The translations under genes were made by a program, and so were the position numbers. Below are positions 1 to 9,203 of a DNA stretch of 64,000 bases, piece after piece (position 1 is the first letter of the stretch; each line of letters begins with the position of its first letter). A model generated the notes under the pieces. That model did no database searches. It was not told where the DNA came from and was given only the letters and a program-made list of their open reading frames with translations. Origin of the DNA: Flavobacteriales bacterium (GTDB taxonomy: Bacteria > Bacteroidota > Bacteroidia > Flavobacteriales_C > GCA-002722245); contig JAHEZL010000022.1 of NCBI GenBank assembly GCA_023251095.1, forward strand, positions 1 through 64,000, written 5' to 3'.

Positions 1-22
1 AACGTTTTTTATCCCTTAAAAC

Positions 23-115
23 TACTGCTCACTTTGCTCAGGATTTACTGCTCACTTTACTTGGGATTCCATTACCCACTTTTGTGTAGATTCTATTGCT
101 CTGCTTAGTAGGATT
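23..115. repeat. Imperfect tandem direct repeats, ~23 bp period, about 4 units
   Basis: TACTGCTCACTTTGCTCAGGATT (23-45), TACTGCTCACTTTACTTGGGATT (46-68), then two more degenerate units each ending in GATT (69-92, 93-115). Confidence 0.6.
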
Positions 116-122
116 TTCCAAA

Positions 123-1379
123 TTAGAACTTCATTAAATTTTCCATAAAGTCTTTTTTTGCCTCATCTTCAAAGCCAGAAAAATACCCTTGCGTTACTTT
201 TAAATTACTGTGATTTAATGCTTCGCTAACAAATTCCATACTTGCACCGCTTCTTATTGCATTTGTAGCAAATGAATGCCTTGCCCAGTAAGTAGAAATT
301 TCATTTGTAATTCCATTGTGTTTGGCTAATTTTTTAAGATTTTGGTTTATAAACTTAGTGAAATTCTTAATTGCTCTGTGTCGTTCCAATAAGCTTTGGT
401 TTTCGTTGGCAATAGAAAACACAAAATCATCGGACGCGTTCTTTTTGTTGCCGTATTCTGCAATAATGCGTTTACCAAAGTCACTCAAATAAACAGTAAT
501 TGGTTTTAAATCTGCTTTTCCCGTATTTATAGTCTTTGCTCTGTAATAAACTATTTTACCTTCCTGTACGTCTTTATGCTTTATTAAAGCAACATCTTTA
601 ATGTTCATACCATTGCAGGAATACGAAAAAAACCAAAAATCTTTTGCCTTTCGTTGCTCTGGGGTTAATGGAACAGCATCGAACAAGGTTTTTAGTTGCT
701 CCTTGCTTAATGATTTTTTTACGCTGCGCACAGCAGGCATTTGATATTTGCGCTTTCCAAATGGGTAAATTTCTGAATCAATTTCCTTTTCTTCAATGGC
801 TTTATTGAAAATTGCCCTTAATGCTCTTAAATACATTGATACAGTAGTAAGACTTTTGTTTTTTGGTGCACCAGTCATGAACTTTTCATAACCATTCAGC
901 CACTTTGGTGTAACCTCAATAAATGATAATGTGCTCTGTTCCTTTGTATTCAGGATTGTTAAATACTCCTTTATTGATTTTAGACTTAACTCATAAGTAC
1001 TAGCAGTGCCAATTTGCCCCTGTGCTTTTAGATATTTTATTGTTGCTTCATATTGGTAAAAGATATTTGTGCCGTCACCGTCCTTTCTAAAAAGTTTCTT
1101 TTCAAATTGCTCAAATGTAAAAGGACTTAATTCTTTCGCCGAATCAACCGCCTTATTTTCAACTGCTTGCATTTGTCGACGCACTTCTTTGTATTCAGTT
1201 CGTGGTTTTGTAGTAAGCCAAATACTTTCAAATTCTTTTTCGGTGAACTCAAACACGGTAGGATATAATTTTTGTTTTCGTGGTGAAGAGGTAAACGCCC
1301 TTAATTTCAAGGGGAATTTGCCACTTTTCTTTGCTCTTCGGGTATCTAAAAAGTACGAAATATAAAACGATTGTTCCAT
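123..1379 (-). CDS. Tyrosine recombinase / phage integrase family (SAM-like N-terminal domain, Bacteroidetes type)
   Basis: 418 aa; C-terminal motifs ARHSFATNAI, LNHSNLKVTQGYF (catalytic Tyr); adjacent to a tRNA 3' fragment. Confidence 0.93.
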   Translation of the reverse strand: MEQSFYISYFLDTRRAKKSGKFPLKLRAFTSSPRKQKLYPTVFEFTEKEFESIWLTTKPRTEYKEVRRQMQAVENKAVDSAKELSPFTFEQFEKKLFRKDGDGTNIFYQYEATIKYLKAQGQIGTASTYELSLKSIKEYLTILNTKEQSTLSFIEVTPKWLNGYEKFMTGAPKNKSLTTVSMYLRALRAIFNKAIEEKEIDSEIYPFGKRKYQMPAVRSVKKSLSKEQLKTLFDAVPLTPEQRKAKDFWFFSYSCNGMNIKDVALIKHKDVQEGKIVYYRAKTINTGKADLKPITVYLSDFGKRIIAEYGNKKNASDDFVFSIANENQSLLERHRAIKNFTKFINQNLKKLAKHNGITNEISTYWARHSFATNAIRSGASMEFVSEALNHSNLKVTQGYFSGFEDEAKKDFMENLMKF

Positions 1380-1562
1380 AATAAGGTATTGATTTCAACA
1401 TCAAATTTAATCATTTGCATACAATTTGCATACAGAAACAATCAACAAACAACTAACAAAACAAAGTAACCAAAGCACTAAAACACTTATAATACCTATA
1501 TTTACATGACTTTAATGATAAACAGAATAAAAAGAAGGTACCATGAATTAGTTAAATATTAT

Positions 1563-1606
1563 GCCTTACAAGCAGAGGGTCATAGGTTCGAATCCTATAG
1601 CTCCCA
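1563..1606 (+). pseudogene. 3' fragment of a tRNA-Val(TAC) gene; probable att site of the adjacent integrase
   Basis: gccTTACAAGCAGAGGGTC-ATAGG-TTCGAAT-CCTAT-AGCTCCCA: part of anticodon loop, variable loop, perfect T-arm and acceptor 3' strand; the matching 5' strand GGGAGCT is absent upstream. Confidence 0.8.
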
Positions 1607-1613
1607 CAACAAA

Positions 1614-1643
1614 ACCCCGATATCGAAAGATGTCGGGGTTTTT
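1614..1643 (+). terminator. Rho-independent terminator downstream of the tRNA fragment
   Basis: ACCCCGATATC-GAAA-GATGTCGGGGT hairpin followed by a T run. Confidence 0.85.
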
Positions 1644-1773
1644 GCTTGAAATAAACAATGGATTTTTAACATCTTCTTCCTTCCCTTCTCTTTTTCCTTT
1701 AGCAATAAATATATTTTAGTAGCAATAATTATTTTGTTCTTGCTTACGTTAACCTTATTATAAAACAACTCCT

Positions 1774-2466
1774 ATGTTCTCATTCTCACTTCTTCAAGCT
1801 ACAGCAGCCTCTTCGGTAGTTACTCCTCCCGTTGAAAAAGCTGCAGAGTCATTGGATTTACTGGATGTAATTGTAAAAGGTGGAGTCATCATGATTCCCA
1901 TTGCTATTTTATCGATAGTGACCATTTACATTTTCGTGGAGCGCTACCTGTACATCAAACGTCAGGTTTCCGCCGATAATAATTTCATGAATACCATTCA
2001 GGATTTTATCCGAAACGGAAATATTGATTCTGCCTTAACTTTTTGTAAAAGCTCCAGCAAACCTGTAGCCCGCATGATTGAAAAAGGAATTTCCCGCATC
2101 GGAATGCCGATCAAAGAAATTGAAGAATCAGTGGAAATCGTTGGGAAATTTGAAGTGTACAAAATGGAAAAAAACGTACACATGCTCTCCATCATCGCAG
2201 GTATAGCGCCAATGCTCGGTTTCCTTGGAACTATCTTTGGTGTGATTCAGCTTTTCTCCGACATTGCAGCGGTAGGATCTCTGGAAATAGGAACTGTATC
2301 TCACGGTTTGTACACTAAAATGGTAACGAGTGCCTCGGGCTTAATCGTTGGTATTTTGGCTTACGTTTGCTACAACTGGATCAACTCTCTGATCAATAAA
2401 GCAGTTCACCAAATGGAATGGAACACCATGACTTTCCTTGATGTACTTAAAGAACCAACACGATGA
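1774..2466 (+). CDS. exbB: MotA/TolQ/ExbB proton channel family protein
   Basis: TM segments, motif IAPMLGFLGTIFGVIQLF; followed by exbD with ATGA overlap. Confidence 0.93.
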   Translation: MFSFSLLQATAASSVVTPPVEKAAESLDLLDVIVKGGVIMIPIAILSIVTIYIFVERYLYIKRQVSADNNFMNTIQDFIRNGNIDSALTFCKSSSKPVARMIEKGISRIGMPIKEIEESVEIVGKFEVYKMEKNVHMLSIIAGIAPMLGFLGTIFGVIQLFSDIAAVGSLEIGTVSHGLYTKMVTSASGLIVGILAYVCYNWINSLINKAVHQMEWNTMTFLDVLKEPTR

Positions 2467-2858
2467 ATCTGAGAGCGAAAAAGAAAGAAAACGCTGAGGT
2501 ATTCACCTCTGCAATGAATGACATCATGTTCTTCCTCATGTTGTTTTTCATCATTGCTTCTACCTTATTGAATCCAAGTATTATCAATGTTGCTTTACCC
2601 AAAGCAACCGACCATGAAGTGTTGCACAAAAAAGAGATGGACCTCACCATCACCAAAGACGCTCACTATTTCATCAACAATAAAGAAACTTCTTTCGATA
2701 ATCTGGAAACCTCTATTACCGGAGAAATGAAAACAGGAGAAGAACTGGTGATTAAATTGCGTTTGGATAAAGATTGCAACATTCAGCAACTGGTGGATAT
2801 TTTAGCACTTGGTAAAAAACTAAATGCTAAAATGGTAATCGCTACAGATAAGAATTAG
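2463..2858 (+). CDS. exbD: Biopolymer transporter ExbD/TolR family
   Basis: N-terminal TM with MNDIMFFLMLFFIIAS; coupled to exbB. Confidence 0.9.
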   Translation: MNLRAKKKENAEVFTSAMNDIMFFLMLFFIIASTLLNPSIINVALPKATDHEVLHKKEMDLTITKDAHYFINNKETSFDNLETSITGEMKTGEELVIKLRLDKDCNIQQLVDILALGKKLNAKMVIATDKN

Positions 2859-4068
2859 AAGCCAGCACATCAGCCACTACAAAAGTACTTCCACCCACAA
2901 AAATAAAATCATCGGCAGCAGCATTTGCTCTCGCCGCTTTCAACGCCGCAGCCGGACTTTCATACATGTTTGCATTTAAATTAAATTGTATGGCCAGCGC
3001 GTATAATTCCTCCACAGGCAAAGCCCTTCCAATCGCAGGCTGACAAAGATAATAGCTGGCGTCTTTCGGTAACAAAGGCAAAATTTTCGATTGATCTTTA
3101 TCGTTTACCGATCCCCAAACGATGTGTAAATTTTTATATTTTTCTTGTTTCAACTGCGCCACCACTCTTTCAATTCCTTCCTTGTTGTGACCCGTATCAC
3201 ATACCATCACAGGATGATTATTCAGTTGCTGCCAGCGCCCTATGAAAGCTGTATTTTGAGCTACTTTCATCAATCCGTCGGAAATATTTTTATCGGAAAT
3301 TTTCCATCCCGATGCTCTTAATTTTTCAATAGAAGCTAAGGCGGTGGAAATATTTTCTTTTTGATAAAGGCCTTTCAAATCACTTTCCATTTCTACACTT
3401 TCAGCAAAAAATAAAGGAGCACTTTTCTCTGTTGCAATTTTCAGGAAAACACTTTCGGTTTCCTTGCGCTTTTCTCCGATGACAACAGGGATTCCCGACT
3501 TGATGATTCCTGCTTTTTCAAAAGCAATTTTTTCCAGGGTATCACCTAAAATATTGGTGTGATCCAAACCAATATTGGTGATCACCGAAAGCTCGGGAGT
3601 AATGATGTTAGTAGAATCCAATCGTCCGCCCAAACCCACTTCCACAATGGCTATATCCACTTTCTCTTTCGCGAAATAATGAAAAGCCATAGCGGTGGTA
3701 TATTCAAAAAAAGAAGGTTCAATGTTTTTAAAAAGCGGAGTGAATTTTTCAACGAAAGAAGTCACTTCTTCTTCAGAAATCATTGCTCCGTTTATTTTTA
3801 TCCGTTCACGAAAATCGATTAAATGCGGACTGCAATAAATGCCGGTTTTATATCCCGCTTCCTGAAAAACAGAAGCCAACATATGTGTCACCGAACCCTT
3901 GCCGTTGGTTCCTGCAACATGAATGGATTTGAATTTATTTTCAGGATTACCCAATACTTTTTCAAGCGCTATGATGTTATGTAAATCGGCTTTGTAAGCG
4001 GATTGCCCGATGCTTTGGTACATGGGCAATTGCGCAAAAAGGAAGTCGGTGGTTTCCTTGTAGGTCAT
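2842..4068 (-). CDS. folC: Bifunctional folylpolyglutamate synthase/dihydrofolate synthase
   Basis: Mur-ligase-like GTNGKGSVTHMLASV, GLGGRLDSTN, TNIGLDHTNILG, CDTGHNKEGI. Confidence 0.95.
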   Translation of the reverse strand: MTYKETTDFLFAQLPMYQSIGQSAYKADLHNIIALEKVLGNPENKFKSIHVAGTNGKGSVTHMLASVFQEAGYKTGIYCSPHLIDFRERIKINGAMISEEEVTSFVEKFTPLFKNIEPSFFEYTTAMAFHYFAKEKVDIAIVEVGLGGRLDSTNIITPELSVITNIGLDHTNILGDTLEKIAFEKAGIIKSGIPVVIGEKRKETESVFLKIATEKSAPLFFAESVEMESDLKGLYQKENISTALASIEKLRASGWKISDKNISDGLMKVAQNTAFIGRWQQLNNHPVMVCDTGHNKEGIERVVAQLKQEKYKNLHIVWGSVNDKDQSKILPLLPKDASYYLCQPAIGRALPVEELYALAIQFNLNANMYESPAAALKAARANAAADDFIFVGGSTFVVADVLASNSYL

Positions 4069-4844
4069 TGCAAATTGAAAACAAAAGTGGCGGTGTATTC
4101 TCTTAATTCCGGACCTTTAGGATCGGCATTGTAGGTTTCTTCTTTGGCTAATTTTTCAGCTCTGGCTCTTAAACAAGGATCAGGATTTTGAGTTCCTTTT
4201 GCATTGCCTGTAGCAGAGACTACTATTCCTTGTCGGTTGATTTTCACCTTCACCATCTGAACCCCTTCTTCCTGACAATCATGCGTAGCGTACTTTGTAT
4301 GTGAACTCACCAAAACCGGATTGTGGCCCGCTCCCGGATTCTTGCTATTTCCTTGTCCTTTACCTCTTCCCGGGTTCTCTCCGTTTGCCCCTTCGTTGCC
4401 CGCTTTATCCGAATCACCATCTCCCTCTCCTCCTATCAGATTTTTCAATCCTGCTAAATTAGTATCCACCTGCTGCGTTTTTTGAACATCGGTTTTCTTG
4501 TTATTTGTTTTTTCCGTTTTGATTTTTTGCTTCTCCTGTTTCTTTTTTACTTGTACGTCGGCATCGGCATCATTCGCCGCAAGCGTTTGCTCCTCAGGAT
4601 TACTTTCAGGCTCTGAAGCTTGTTGTTGCTCTTGCTGAGCTGCAACAACAGCCGATTCAACATTGCCACTGCCCTCCGGAGCATCTCCATAACTTACTTC
4701 CATTGTGGATCCAGCTCCTTCCGGTTCCTCGGGGATTTCCACAGAAACCACCATAAGTAAAAACACTATAAACAATATCGCATGAAGAACAATGGTGACT
4801 ACGGCACCCACTACTCTATCCGATGTTTCTGCGTTTGCATTCAT
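4065..4844 (-). CDS. TonB-like energy transducer
   Basis: N-terminal TM, charged/low-complexity linker, TonB/TolA-like C-terminus; overlaps folC start by 4 nt. Confidence 0.75.
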   Translation of the reverse strand: MNANAETSDRVVGAVVTIVLHAILFIVFLLMVVSVEIPEEPEGAGSTMEVSYGDAPEGSGNVESAVVAAQQEQQQASEPESNPEEQTLAANDADADVQVKKKQEKQKIKTEKTNNKKTDVQKTQQVDTNLAGLKNLIGGEGDGDSDKAGNEGANGENPGRGKGQGNSKNPGAGHNPVLVSSHTKYATHDCQEEGVQMVKVKINRQGIVVSATGNAKGTQNPDPCLRARAEKLAKEETYNADPKGPELREYTATFVFNLQ

Positions 4845-4889
4845 ATTTTCCCGTTTTTAAATTAACGACTGCTTTTTATCATTATTACT

Positions 4890-6143
4890 TTACATACAAA
4901 GATACACTAGTGCTCCTGCCATATAACCGGCAATCGCGAGAGGCGATATTTTTTTTAAATACCACATGAAATTCATTTTCTCCATGCCCATCGCCGCAAC
5001 GCCTGCAGCTGAACCAATCACCAAACAACTTCCTCCTGTGCCCGCACAATACGCCAGAAACTGCCAGAAGGAATCGTCCTGAGGCATTGCATACATTTCC
5101 ATTCCTGCTGCCACCAAAGGGACATTGTCTACCACTGCCGAAGCAAAACCGATGACCACCGCTATCATATTTTTGTCACCAATAGCGACATCAAGTTTTG
5201 AAGATAAATCCTGCAACAAGCCTGTGGCCCCCAAACTCCCAACAGCCAGCAATATTCCGAGAAAAAATAAAATACTGGACGTGTCAATATTTTTAAGAAC
5301 ACTAATCACTTTAGTTGCAGGACGTATCAAGTGATCTAATTGGGGATTAATAATTTCCGACACCACCCATATAACAGCCAATACAAACAAAATACCCATG
5401 AAAGGTGGAAGATGAGTAAAATGCTTAAATAGCGGAACAAACAATAAACCACCTATTCCCAATGCTAAAATCAATTTTTTATGAATCGGTTTAATCGTGA
5501 TTTCGTTATTGTCGTTCAATACAGGACGAATAACATGACCTTTCATTTTAAATGATAAAATAATCAAAGGCACCAACAAACAAATCAAACTTGGAAGCAA
5601 GAGCGTTTTCATCACTCCTATCACAGAAATCTTTCCTTTAATCCACAACATCGTTGTAGTAACATCACCAGTTACCGTCCACGCCCCACCTGCATTTGCG
5701 GCAATCACTATCATACCTGCAAAAAGCAAGCGGTCATTTTTATCATCTACCAGTTTCCGCAGCAAAGAAATCATCACAATAGTAGTGGTCAGATTATCCA
5801 GCACAGCCGAAAGGAAAAAAGTGAGGATACCTAAAATCCACAAAAGCTTCACTTTATTTGTTGCAGTAATTCTATCGGTGATTAAAGAAAATCCTTCAAA
5901 GGCATCTACTATTTCAACGATCACCATGGCGCCCAAAAGAAAAAACAAGATTTCAGAGATGTCACCAAAAGCATGAAACAACTGTGAATTCACCAATTCT
6001 GAATCGGCACTGAAAACATAAATCACCCAGCACAAAATCCCCGTCAGCAAAGCCGATGCAGCCTTATCTATCTTTAAAGGATGTTCAAAAGCTATCGCCA
6101 GATAACCCAAAATAAACACCACAATAAGCAGACTTGTTGCCAT
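4890..6143 (-). CDS. nhaD: NhaD-type sodium:proton antiporter
   Basis: Multi-TM; VLDNLTTTIVMISLLRKL, NAGGAWTVTGDVTTTMLW, SAVVDNVPLVAA. Confidence 0.92.
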   Translation of the reverse strand: MATSLLIVVFILGYLAIAFEHPLKIDKAASALLTGILCWVIYVFSADSELVNSQLFHAFGDISEILFFLLGAMVIVEIVDAFEGFSLITDRITATNKVKLLWILGILTFFLSAVLDNLTTTIVMISLLRKLVDDKNDRLLFAGMIVIAANAGGAWTVTGDVTTTMLWIKGKISVIGVMKTLLLPSLICLLVPLIILSFKMKGHVIRPVLNDNNEITIKPIHKKLILALGIGGLLFVPLFKHFTHLPPFMGILFVLAVIWVVSEIINPQLDHLIRPATKVISVLKNIDTSSILFFLGILLAVGSLGATGLLQDLSSKLDVAIGDKNMIAVVIGFASAVVDNVPLVAAGMEMYAMPQDDSFWQFLAYCAGTGGSCLVIGSAAGVAAMGMEKMNFMWYLKKISPLAIAGYMAGALVYLCM

Positions 6144-6220
6144 ATTATAAAAATAAGAAAAGAGGGAAGAGGAAGTGAGTTAAACCCTTGAAGATATTGA
6201 CAACAGAGGGTTAATAGGGA

Positions 6221-7387
6221 TCAAGCTTTTCGGCGATGCTTCTCCGCCATAATCAATTTGAGTTCTCTTCCGGTTTGACCGGCAATGGAGGTATTTTCTT
6301 TTGCACGGCGGATAAGGTAAGGCACCAGTTTTTCCACCGGACCGTAAGGCACGTATTTCGCCACATTGTAACCTTCCGCTGCGAGATTGTAACTGATGTG
6401 ATTGCTCATTCCATACAACTGCGCGAAAAACACACGTTCATCAGTAGTTTTAATTCCTTTTTGTTTGATCATGTGCACCAGATGCAAACAGCTGGATTCA
6501 TTATGTGTTCCGGCACAAATGCTCACTGCATCTAAATTTTCAACGCAAATAGTTAATGCTTTATTGAATAACCTATCGGTATCTTCTTTATTGGGATTAA
6601 TGGGAGAAGGGTAACCATTCACCTCCGCACGCTTGCGCTCCTTTTCCATGTAGGCGCCACGCACCAGTTTTAATCCGAGATGATAACCTTCTCCTCTTGC
6701 GCTTTCAATCTGATCTTTTAAATAAGTGATCCTATCGTTGCGGTACAGCTGAATGGTATTGTACACAATGGCCTGTTCGCGATTGTATTTTTTTATCATT
6801 TCCTCGGCGATACTATCGATTACTTTTTGAATCCAGGTTTCTTCCGCATCCAAAAATATGCGCACTTTGTTTTCGTGAGCGGCTTTACAAATATCCTCTA
6901 TCCTTGCCCTTACCTTAACGTATTCTTCTTTTTCGTCATCCGTGAGTGCTTCACCCGATTGCACTTTAACCAACAAATCAAAACGGGCCAGACCCGTAAT
7001 TTTAAAAACAGTAAAGGGAATTTTTCTGTTTCCTTTGGCCAGCTTTATAGTTTCCAGAACCTGTTGTTTTGAAGTTTCAAAAGATTCATCATTCTCCTGG
7101 CCTTCTGCCGAATAATCTAAAATGGTTCCTACTTTGTATTTATTGTACATCTCCCACATCACATCCTTACATTCTTCAATGTCTTCCCCTCCGCAAAATT
7201 GTTTGTATAAAGTTTTTTTGATCAATCCTTTTATAGGTAAATGGATTCTGAAAGCCCATCTCATTATGCCTTTTCCGTATTTTACCAAGGAGGGATAACC
7301 CATCATTTTAAATAAAACGAAGGATTGGTTGAGCTCTTTGTTTGAGCGGCCTTTAAAAGCAATTTCAGTGTTTAGAAAACTAAGCAT
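6221..7387 (-). CDS. Proline dehydrogenase family protein
   Basis: FLDAEETWIQ, LKLVRGAYMEKER, YVPYGPVEKLVPYLIRRAKENTS. Confidence 0.93.
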   Translation of the reverse strand: MLSFLNTEIAFKGRSNKELNQSFVLFKMMGYPSLVKYGKGIMRWAFRIHLPIKGLIKKTLYKQFCGGEDIEECKDVMWEMYNKYKVGTILDYSAEGQENDESFETSKQQVLETIKLAKGNRKIPFTVFKITGLARFDLLVKVQSGEALTDDEKEEYVKVRARIEDICKAAHENKVRIFLDAEETWIQKVIDSIAEEMIKKYNREQAIVYNTIQLYRNDRITYLKDQIESARGEGYHLGLKLVRGAYMEKERKRAEVNGYPSPINPNKEDTDRLFNKALTICVENLDAVSICAGTHNESSCLHLVHMIKQKGIKTTDERVFFAQLYGMSNHISYNLAAEGYNVAKYVPYGPVEKLVPYLIRRAKENTSIAGQTGRELKLIMAEKHRRKA

Positions 7388-7440
7388 AGCGTTGCTTTTT
7401 CATTTAAATACGACAGATAGAAAAAGAAGTTTGAAAAAAT

Positions 7441-8319
7441 TTATCGTTTCTTTTTTCTTAAATATAGCTTTTCTCCTGCAACGGGAGAACTTCCGGGAAG
7501 GATATTGTTCTTTTTATACAGATGCTTTAACTGAATGGCAAATTTTTGAGAAATCCCGAGGTAAGTATCGTTTGACTGAACAACGTAGATGGCTTCCGTT
7601 CCTCGGCGGCGTTTGGGTTGAGTGTAAATAAAATCTCCCTCTTTTAAAGAAACGCTGTCGTTCACATCATTGTATTTTTTTAAGCGGCGGATACTGATTT
7701 GCAGTTCTTTCGACAAGCTTTCAAAATCATCTTTCTTTCTGGCCACAACATATTTTACAAAATTCTTACTTTGTAAAATGGGATGCAGTGTGGTGTCTTT
7801 CTCCGCTGTCAGTTCTTTTTCCGTCCAGCTGTCAAACTGATGTAAGTTATAACGTTCAACAATATCGGTGAGCAATTGCGGATATTTTGGATTGGTGGCA
7901 TATCCGGCGGCTTTCAATCCCTGAGCCCAGGCTTTATAATCGGTCATTTTCAATTGGAAGAGCCCTGCATACCTGGATCTTTCCTTCAAAAATTTTGAAT
8001 GATCGCGGTAAGATTCCAAAACATCATTGTATTTTCTGAAGCATTCATTTTTGGTATCATCGTCCATGTGGTAAGTATCGCCCGTCCAATCGGAATGGCA
8101 TTTTATACCAAAATGATTTTTGGCATTTTGCGCCAGTTTACTGTTGCCATAATTGGATTCCAGCATTCCCTGCGCCAGCGTAATGCTTGCAGGAACGCCA
8201 TACTCCAGCATTTCCTTAATGGCGTCATCTTTATATTCCTCAATGTATTGTTCGGCAGTAAGAGTTGCAAATACAGCCGTCTGCATAAAAAACAATGCTA
8301 TGAGTAATACTTTTTTCAT
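7441..8319 (-). CDS. Secreted glucosaminidase-domain protein with LysM domain
   Basis: Signal peptide; GVPASITLAQGMLESNYGNSKLAQNAKNHFGIKC; C-terminal LysM YVVQSNDTYLGISQKF. Confidence 0.92.
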   Translation of the reverse strand: MKKVLLIALFFMQTAVFATLTAEQYIEEYKDDAIKEMLEYGVPASITLAQGMLESNYGNSKLAQNAKNHFGIKCHSDWTGDTYHMDDDTKNECFRKYNDVLESYRDHSKFLKERSRYAGLFQLKMTDYKAWAQGLKAAGYATNPKYPQLLTDIVERYNLHQFDSWTEKELTAEKDTTLHPILQSKNFVKYVVARKKDDFESLSKELQISIRRLKKYNDVNDSVSLKEGDFIYTQPKRRRGTEAIYVVQSNDTYLGISQKFAIQLKHLYKKNNILPGSSPVAGEKLYLRKKKR

Positions 8320-8336
8320 CGCCTTAAAATTACTTA

Positions 8337-9203
8337 TTAAAATAAGTCAATGTCAAATCTCTCTTTAATTCCTGCATTTCCCTGCAAGCCTCCAGTATGA
8401 ATTACCAACACTTTACTGTGTTTTAAAAAATAGTTTTTGCGCAGTAAATCCATCACTCCCATCATCATTTTCCCAGTATAAATTCCGTCCAGCGGAACCT
8501 CATATTGTTGCTTAAACATTTTGATGAAAGTCACCAGCTCATCGTTGATTTTACCATAACCACCGCAATGATAATCCAACGCGAGATCCCAGTTTTTATT
8601 GGTATTTTGAAAGGAAATCAAATGCTGATTGATTTCTTCTTTCAGAAATCCGGCTCCTTTTAAAACGGGAATTCCCAAAACTTTTTGCTGTGGCAAAGCC
8701 GACAAAATCAATCCGCTTAAAGTCGCTCCCGTACCACAGGCACAAACAATACAATCGTACTTTTCACCAATTCCGGCCAGCATTTCCGAGCAGCCCTGAA
8801 CGCCAAATTTATTTGAACCTCCTTCGGGAATAACATACACATCCGAAAAAGAAAATCGCGAAAGATCTTTGTTTCTATATTCCTCTCTCGACAAAAAATA
8901 AAGCTCCATTCCCTGCTCCTTACAAAACTGTAAAGTAGGATTTAAAGCAGCCTGCTCCTCACCCCTAACCAGGCCGATGGTTTTAATGTTGTGCTCTTTT
9001 CCCGCAGCGGCCGTTGCCGACAAATGATTAGAGTAAGCCCCACCAAAAGTGACAATGGCAGAGGATTTTAATCGTTTTGCTTCTTCCAGATTGTACTTCA
9101 GCTTCCACCATTTATTTCCCGATACAAAAGGATGTCGCAAATCCTCCCGCAAAATATCGAGCTGAATGTTTTCGTTAAAAATTCCTAGTGGCTGCAACAA
9201 CAT
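8337..9203 (-). CDS. PLP-dependent D-cysteine desulfhydrase / ACC deaminase-like protein
   Basis: GNKWWKLKYNL (PLP Lys), FGGAYSNHL, ACGTGATLSGL. Confidence 0.87.
   Translation of the reverse strand: MLLQPLGIFNENIQLDILREDLRHPFVSGNKWWKLKYNLEEAKRLKSSAIVTFGGAYSNHLSATAAAGKEHNIKTIGLVRGEEQAALNPTLQFCKEQGMELYFLSREEYRNKDLSRFSFSDVYVIPEGGSNKFGVQGCSEMLAGIGEKYDCIVCACGTGATLSGLILSALPQQKVLGIPVLKGAGFLKEEINQHLISFQNTNKNWDLALDYHCGGYGKINDELVTFIKMFKQQYEVPLDGIYTGKMMMGVMDLLRKNYFLKHSKVLVIHTGGLQGNAGIKERFDIDLF

Follow-up and report, generated by a model that had tools for sequence, protein, structure and literature searches.

Among the closest described systems is NBU1, an IME of Bacteroides that targets the 3′ end of tRNA-Leu and that, like the element reported here, is small and carries a tyrosine integrase of the IntCTnDOT subgroup (PMC5704250, PMC8138268). 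NBU1 differs in encoding a relaxase and in keeping Arg I, whereas here the Arg I position is occupied by Asn and the relatives have no clear relaxase. A further likeness is found in circular cfxA elements of Bacteroides (NZ_OY725959 and OY726037), which we take to be Tn4555-like and which share the order integrase, ORF, HTH, AAA ATPase and toprim; their integrases, however, are only about 32% identical to ours and mobilisation genes have been added, both having a relaxase and one also MobC. The first of these (NZ_OY725959.1, L200) is a 15.7 kb circle from Bacteroides finegoldii in which the int-HTH-AAA-toprim backbone is accompanied by cfxA, MobC and the relaxase; in OY726037 a simple motif scan found no tRNA T-arm. 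Since these circles, with their distant integrases, share the backbone and add a relaxase, a link with mobilisable elements is plausible.

Tycheposons, other relaxase-less tRNA-targeting hitchers and the PICI and PICMI satellites are likewise small, with a tyrosine recombinase, replication genes, often a tRNA target and defence cargo, and the need for a helper. They differ in phylum and in gene set, which here includes a DUF6371 primase and HTH_17, and packaging of the present family is hypothetical. The tmRNA islands of SBW25, such as I55, also pair a tyrosine integrase with restriction-modification cargo and direct repeats and are without transfer genes, but I55 has a tmRNA target in Pseudomonas and has been shown to be moved by a jumbo phage (PMC12595487).

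The window, by which we mean the whole 64,000-nt stretch of Flavobacteriales DNA analysed, begins at base 1 of contig C13 in a draft genome of 43 contigs and 3.59 Mb; the missing left part is therefore due to a contig break and not merely to the window edge. We conclude, with near certainty, that a small integrative element entered tRNA-Val(TAC) through site-specific recombination in the anticodon stem-loop and that positions 1–1612 are its end on the integrase side (attR). The features concerned are given below; C1 is a second contig of the same genome, also numbered as locus L005.

1–120, no strand: terminus of a multicopy IS-like repeat, its outer end (TGGAAAATCC...) at 120; five identical copies, all at contig ends
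123–1379, minus strand: tyrosine integrase, 418 aa, IntCTnDOT-like, from the ORF, domain matches and alignment
1411–1434, no strand: arm-type repeat CATTTGCATACAATTTGCATACA(G), 24 nt, with the same 24-nt match at the C1 end (L005 about 2221–2244)
1562–1612, plus strand: attR, the tRNA-Val(TAC) 3′ half from anticodon stem to 3′ end plus 5 nt, 51/51 identical to C1:2284–2334 (minus strand)
1614–1643, plus strand: original terminator of the tRNA gene, which stayed with the displaced fragment, from folding energy and the T run downstream
1774–2466, plus strand: MotA/TolQ/ExbB-type gene of the host flank, directly downstream of tRNA-Val in the G002 empty site

An earlier, sequence-only reading of the window had noticed a recombinase gene beside an isolated tRNA 3′ piece, and both components are indeed present. 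The 418-aa ORF matches Phage_int_SAM_5 (4e-16) and Phage_integrase (3e-14), and its start at 1379 adjoins the att site, which begins at 1562. ARAGORN finds no complete tRNA in the window, and the 5′ half is therefore absent there, as had been claimed. The att repeat that the reading placed at 1563–1606 is real but longer, occupying 1562–1612 (51 nt), of which 1562–1607 (46 nt) is the displaced tRNA-Val(TAC) 3′ half and the last 5 nt lie beyond it. The strong terminator described after the fragment is borne out by folding, with a hairpin in 1600–1650 at −23 kcal/mol (z −5.6) and a T run after it.

The second tRNA-Val(TAC) copy, which the reading expected to share the same 3′ block, is found on C1. 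The intact gene lies at C1 2289–2364 (minus strand), and the 51-nt block at C1:2284–2334 (minus strand) is 100% identical to that in the window, which is far beyond chance. With up to three mismatches allowed, the 24-nt core occurs in two places in the genome, the window and the intact tRNA on C1, while a control pattern gives no match; by a 42-nt pattern at the same tolerance, the C1 gene is the sole intact copy in the genome. The order on C1 is an MMPL-type gene, tRNA-Val, element DNA and the contig break, in the orientation predicted. Element DNA runs from C1 2283 down to 1 and from C13 1 to 1561, so that both contigs are broken inside it. We conclude that C1 carries attL together with the working tRNA, and we infer that C1 and C13 are linked through the element, whose two ends stand on different contigs of the draft genome.

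The uninterrupted site is seen in G002, a genome of the same genus without the element. On its contig C4 an MMPL gene, tRNA-Val(TAC), a terminator and MotA/ExbB follow one another, with 209 bp from the tRNA to ExbB, and this arrangement is that of the C1 flank joined to the C13 flank. All four same-genus genomes compared (G001–G004) have the MMPL gene on the upstream side of the tRNA; one of them (G002) has a clean empty site, and the other three have different DNA or a contig break there. The exact 51-nt copy in an intact tRNA, the other element end and the empty site together uphold the claim of tRNA 3′-end integration, and the comparison confirms that the 44-nt tRNA scrap spotted by eye is a true att site.

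By the mechanism that we propose, the integrase would have recombined the chromosomal tRNA with an attP in which its 3′ half was duplicated. The functional tRNA on C1 is now completed by the 3′ half that came with the element, which also gives it a new terminator, and the host's original 3′ half, with its terminator, would have been pushed to the far side and into the window.

Sixty related integrases were collected from Bacteroidota genomes, one of the records being labelled Chlorobi. In the 55 that were aligned the Arg I position is Asn throughout (N259), and R280, K282, R367, H390 and Y399 do not vary. For the IntCTnDOT subgroup, loss of Arg I and the use of an alternative arginine have been described (PMC8138268), and R280 would be the functional substitute, equivalent to the alternative Arg of IntDOT. 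In nearly all of the ∼55 related integrases a tRNA 3′ piece lies at the same distance upstream of the gene, and these pieces begin in the anticodon stem. The anticodons, read by eye, are most commonly Val(TAC), followed by Asn(GTT), Arg, Thr(TGT), Met(CAT), Gly(GCC), Lys(CTT) and Pro.

Eleven of the relatives are complete, with both att copies, among them L142 in Algoriphagus aquimarinus and L143 in Litoribacter ruber, both cultured organisms. They measure 4.8–10.6 kb, occupy tRNA-Val, Lys, Thr and Asn genes, and share a layout of integrase, HTH_17 protein, replication module and cargo such as restriction-modification. The families found among their 68 proteins include HTH_17 (11), DUF6371 (6), AAA_25 (4), D5_N/DUF5906 (3), Rep_1 (3) and Terminase_2 (2), and the cargo seen in relatives includes a type II restriction-modification pair, a type ISP/IIG restriction-modification enzyme and an Abi-like protein. 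In support of the sequence-only reading, these relatives differ in size as well as in the tRNA gene that they occupy. We conclude that they and the present element form a Bacteroidota-wide family of 5–11 kb elements that target tRNA genes, carry a replication module and vary in their cargo; a description of such a family was not found in the limited set of open-access papers searched. As no clear transfer genes are seen in the relatives, these elements would have to borrow the transfer machine of a helper. The mechanism is that of classical tRNA insertion, the coherent family being the less ordinary part. At the distal ends of L114, L119, L140, L142 and C1, the genes nearest the restored tRNA encode different proteins, which nevertheless often begin with a signal- or lipoprotein-like N-terminus.

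Common features are also seen just inside the element ends. Measured from the cores, the 24-nt repeat (CATTTGCATACAATTTGCATACA plus one base) sits 127 nt inward on the integrase side and 39 nt inward on the distal side, and TGCAAAT repeats in the 11 complete relatives lie 112–155 nt from the integrase-side core and 32–56 nt from the distal core. The longest word common to both ends is 16–22 nt in the clearest elements, compared with at most 14 when windows are drawn at random from these elements; in L120, L121, L137, L140 and L143 it is 10–12 nt, by itself not above the control. Arm sites are known for IntDOT (PMC8138268), and by analogy we read the tandem TGCAAAT repeats within the two ends as probable arm-binding sites of the integrase. 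Between arm and tRNA on C1 (L005 2244–2290) lies a hairpin, with its T run on the same strand as the tRNA, that folds at −22.5 kcal/mol (z −6.5), and corresponding hairpins are found in all 11 complete relatives (−19.5 to −24.4 kcal/mol). Placed directly behind the restored tRNA, this structure means that the element supplies a terminator along with the tRNA 3′ half, which suggests selection to keep expression of the host tRNA unharmed. The ends thus described provide a signature for finding a widespread class of small Bacteroidota islands with restriction-modification and similar cargo, namely a tRNA 3′ piece, ∼120 nt, tandem TGCAAAT arms and integrase at one end, and tRNA, terminator and TGCAAAT arms at the other.

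A bolder reading of these observations is more tentative, and rather less likely than not. This element may be a decayed representative of a family of satellite-like islands, undescribed, spread across the Bacteroidota and without a relaxase, that is characterised by an integrase without Arg I, HTH_17, an exchangeable DUF6371/AAA, D5 or Rep_1 module, defence or exported-protein cargo and a tRNA terminator of their own. The integrase would have switched among tRNA genes while the anticodon-stem crossover was kept, and the islands would travel by means of phages or other helpers. 

Two other views of the family's transfer seem to us rather unlikely, and equally so. The first is that the element is an IME mobilised by conjugation, of the NBU or Tn4555 type. 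The integrase subgroup is common to CTnDOT and NBU1 (PMC8138268), and in the circular OY726037 and NZ_OY725959 the int-HTH-AAA-toprim series is followed by MobC and/or a relaxase, but no relaxase appears among the best 25 of the 28 families listed for the 68 proteins of the 11 complete relatives. The second is that these are phage satellites packaged by helper phages. The small size, the primase and the defence cargo resemble those of PICI-like elements and tycheposons (PMC11389934), and a terminase small subunit is encoded by two of the 11 complete relatives; the other nine, however, have no Terminase_2 match, and none is seen in the visible part of the present copy, whose interior is missing. 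Moreover, no close relative is found in IMG/VR, and matches in phage collections reach at most about 35% identity, the best looking like a piece of Bacteroides chromosome. MT836474 was considered as evidence of packaging and rejected, since by our reading it carries SusC/SusD-like chromosomal genes.

The present copy appears damaged. The element genes visible on C1 encode a protein of 348–364 aa, a protein of 123 aa and a DUF6371 primase that is truncated on the 5′ side. The first (L005 1045–2091) has a signal-like N-terminus of exported type, belongs to no named family and gives weak matches in only 2 of ∼118 other genomes, and the 123-aa protein weakly matches unknown phage families. DUF6371 has a single match in the genome, covering domain positions 55–150 only, so that the C-terminal part of the primase remains. 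On C1 this remnant stops at TGGATATTCC...; in the window, ...GGATTTTCCA finishes at base 120, which lies two bases beyond the integrase stop.

C13 breaks inside the IS-like repeat, the other terminus of which is present in five identical copies, at C1:1–113 (L005 1–113) and at four more contig ends. IS-like tips are also found at contigs C9, C10, C17, C23, C27, C28, C32 and C38, and the terminal inverted repeat, as read from the sequence, is imperfect, with 21 of the first 30 bases alike. Searching ∼59 other genomes with the IS ends gave no full copy and one weak 49-bp match (G009), with no transposase nearby. By eye, the truncated genes at IS-bearing contig ends show no mutual match, and no pair of IS tips shares a target-site duplication of 4 nt or more, so that an IS-like element beside which the helicase and HTH genes were lost is a tentative reading. 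The replication module of this copy has probably disappeared beside the IS-like repeat, and the copy is likely to be incapable of independent movement. As both contigs break at the repeat, the hidden cargo is largely not recoverable. The sequence-only reading suggested that unseen cargo could hold an accessory system; the visible part, beyond its two unknown genes, contains no recognisable system of this kind.

It is improbable that the element is instead intact and much larger, with two IS copies flanking a hidden interior that holds a working replication module and cargo. Although both broken ends stop in a repeat found at the tips of eight other contigs, which could lie between them, the single DUF6371 match, confined to positions 55–150, shows that the missing half of the primase is not elsewhere in the genome. 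Nor did a search of contig tips and small contigs reveal homologues of the family AAA or HTH proteins, apart from a weak HTH_17 match on C25, and the complete relatives measure 4.8–10.6 kb. C25 (L029, G000:C25, 1826–4040), which overlaps the far end of C13 by 120 bp, carries an HTH_17-like gene together with another, distant integrase, and this locus is possibly another mobile element.

A decayed tRNA pseudogene, or a duplication from a rearrangement, with an integrase beside it by coincidence, is a very improbable explanation of the block: tRNA fragments can arise without integrases, and odd partial tRNA copies lie beside a GIY-YIG ORF at the same locus in G003, but here the match of the fragment is 100%, extends 5 nt past the tRNA and is accompanied by the arm repeat at both ends, the integrase-arm-core geometry recurs in dozens of relatives, and the second element end on C1 in our view refutes it.

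The element is not the only DNA at this position, as the content downstream of the tRNA differs among G001, G003 and G004 and the site is therefore variable within the genus. In G001 the tRNA is followed by DNA with repeated TTTGCAATG-type words and then the contig end. In G004, the nearest relative, 7.4 kb of genes separate tRNA-Val and ExbB (L190, G004:C1:60000-76000, 1414–8835), among which we read MBOAT acyltransferase, FkbH-like and MscL-like genes; this cluster was rejected as a sibling element, since it contains no second copy of the tRNA end. The G003 site holds a GIY-YIG ORF and partial tRNA copies (L191, C114:9000-14286, 4910–5287), the end of the ORF overlapping one such copy, and a second tRNA-Val 3′ piece is present on C120. 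Small GIY-YIG endonuclease ORFs lie directly 3′ of a tRNA gene (Val, Asn, Ala or Asp) at 4 of 30 GIY-YIG loci (L191, L214, L227 and L236), and may represent tRNA-targeting, homing-like insertions.
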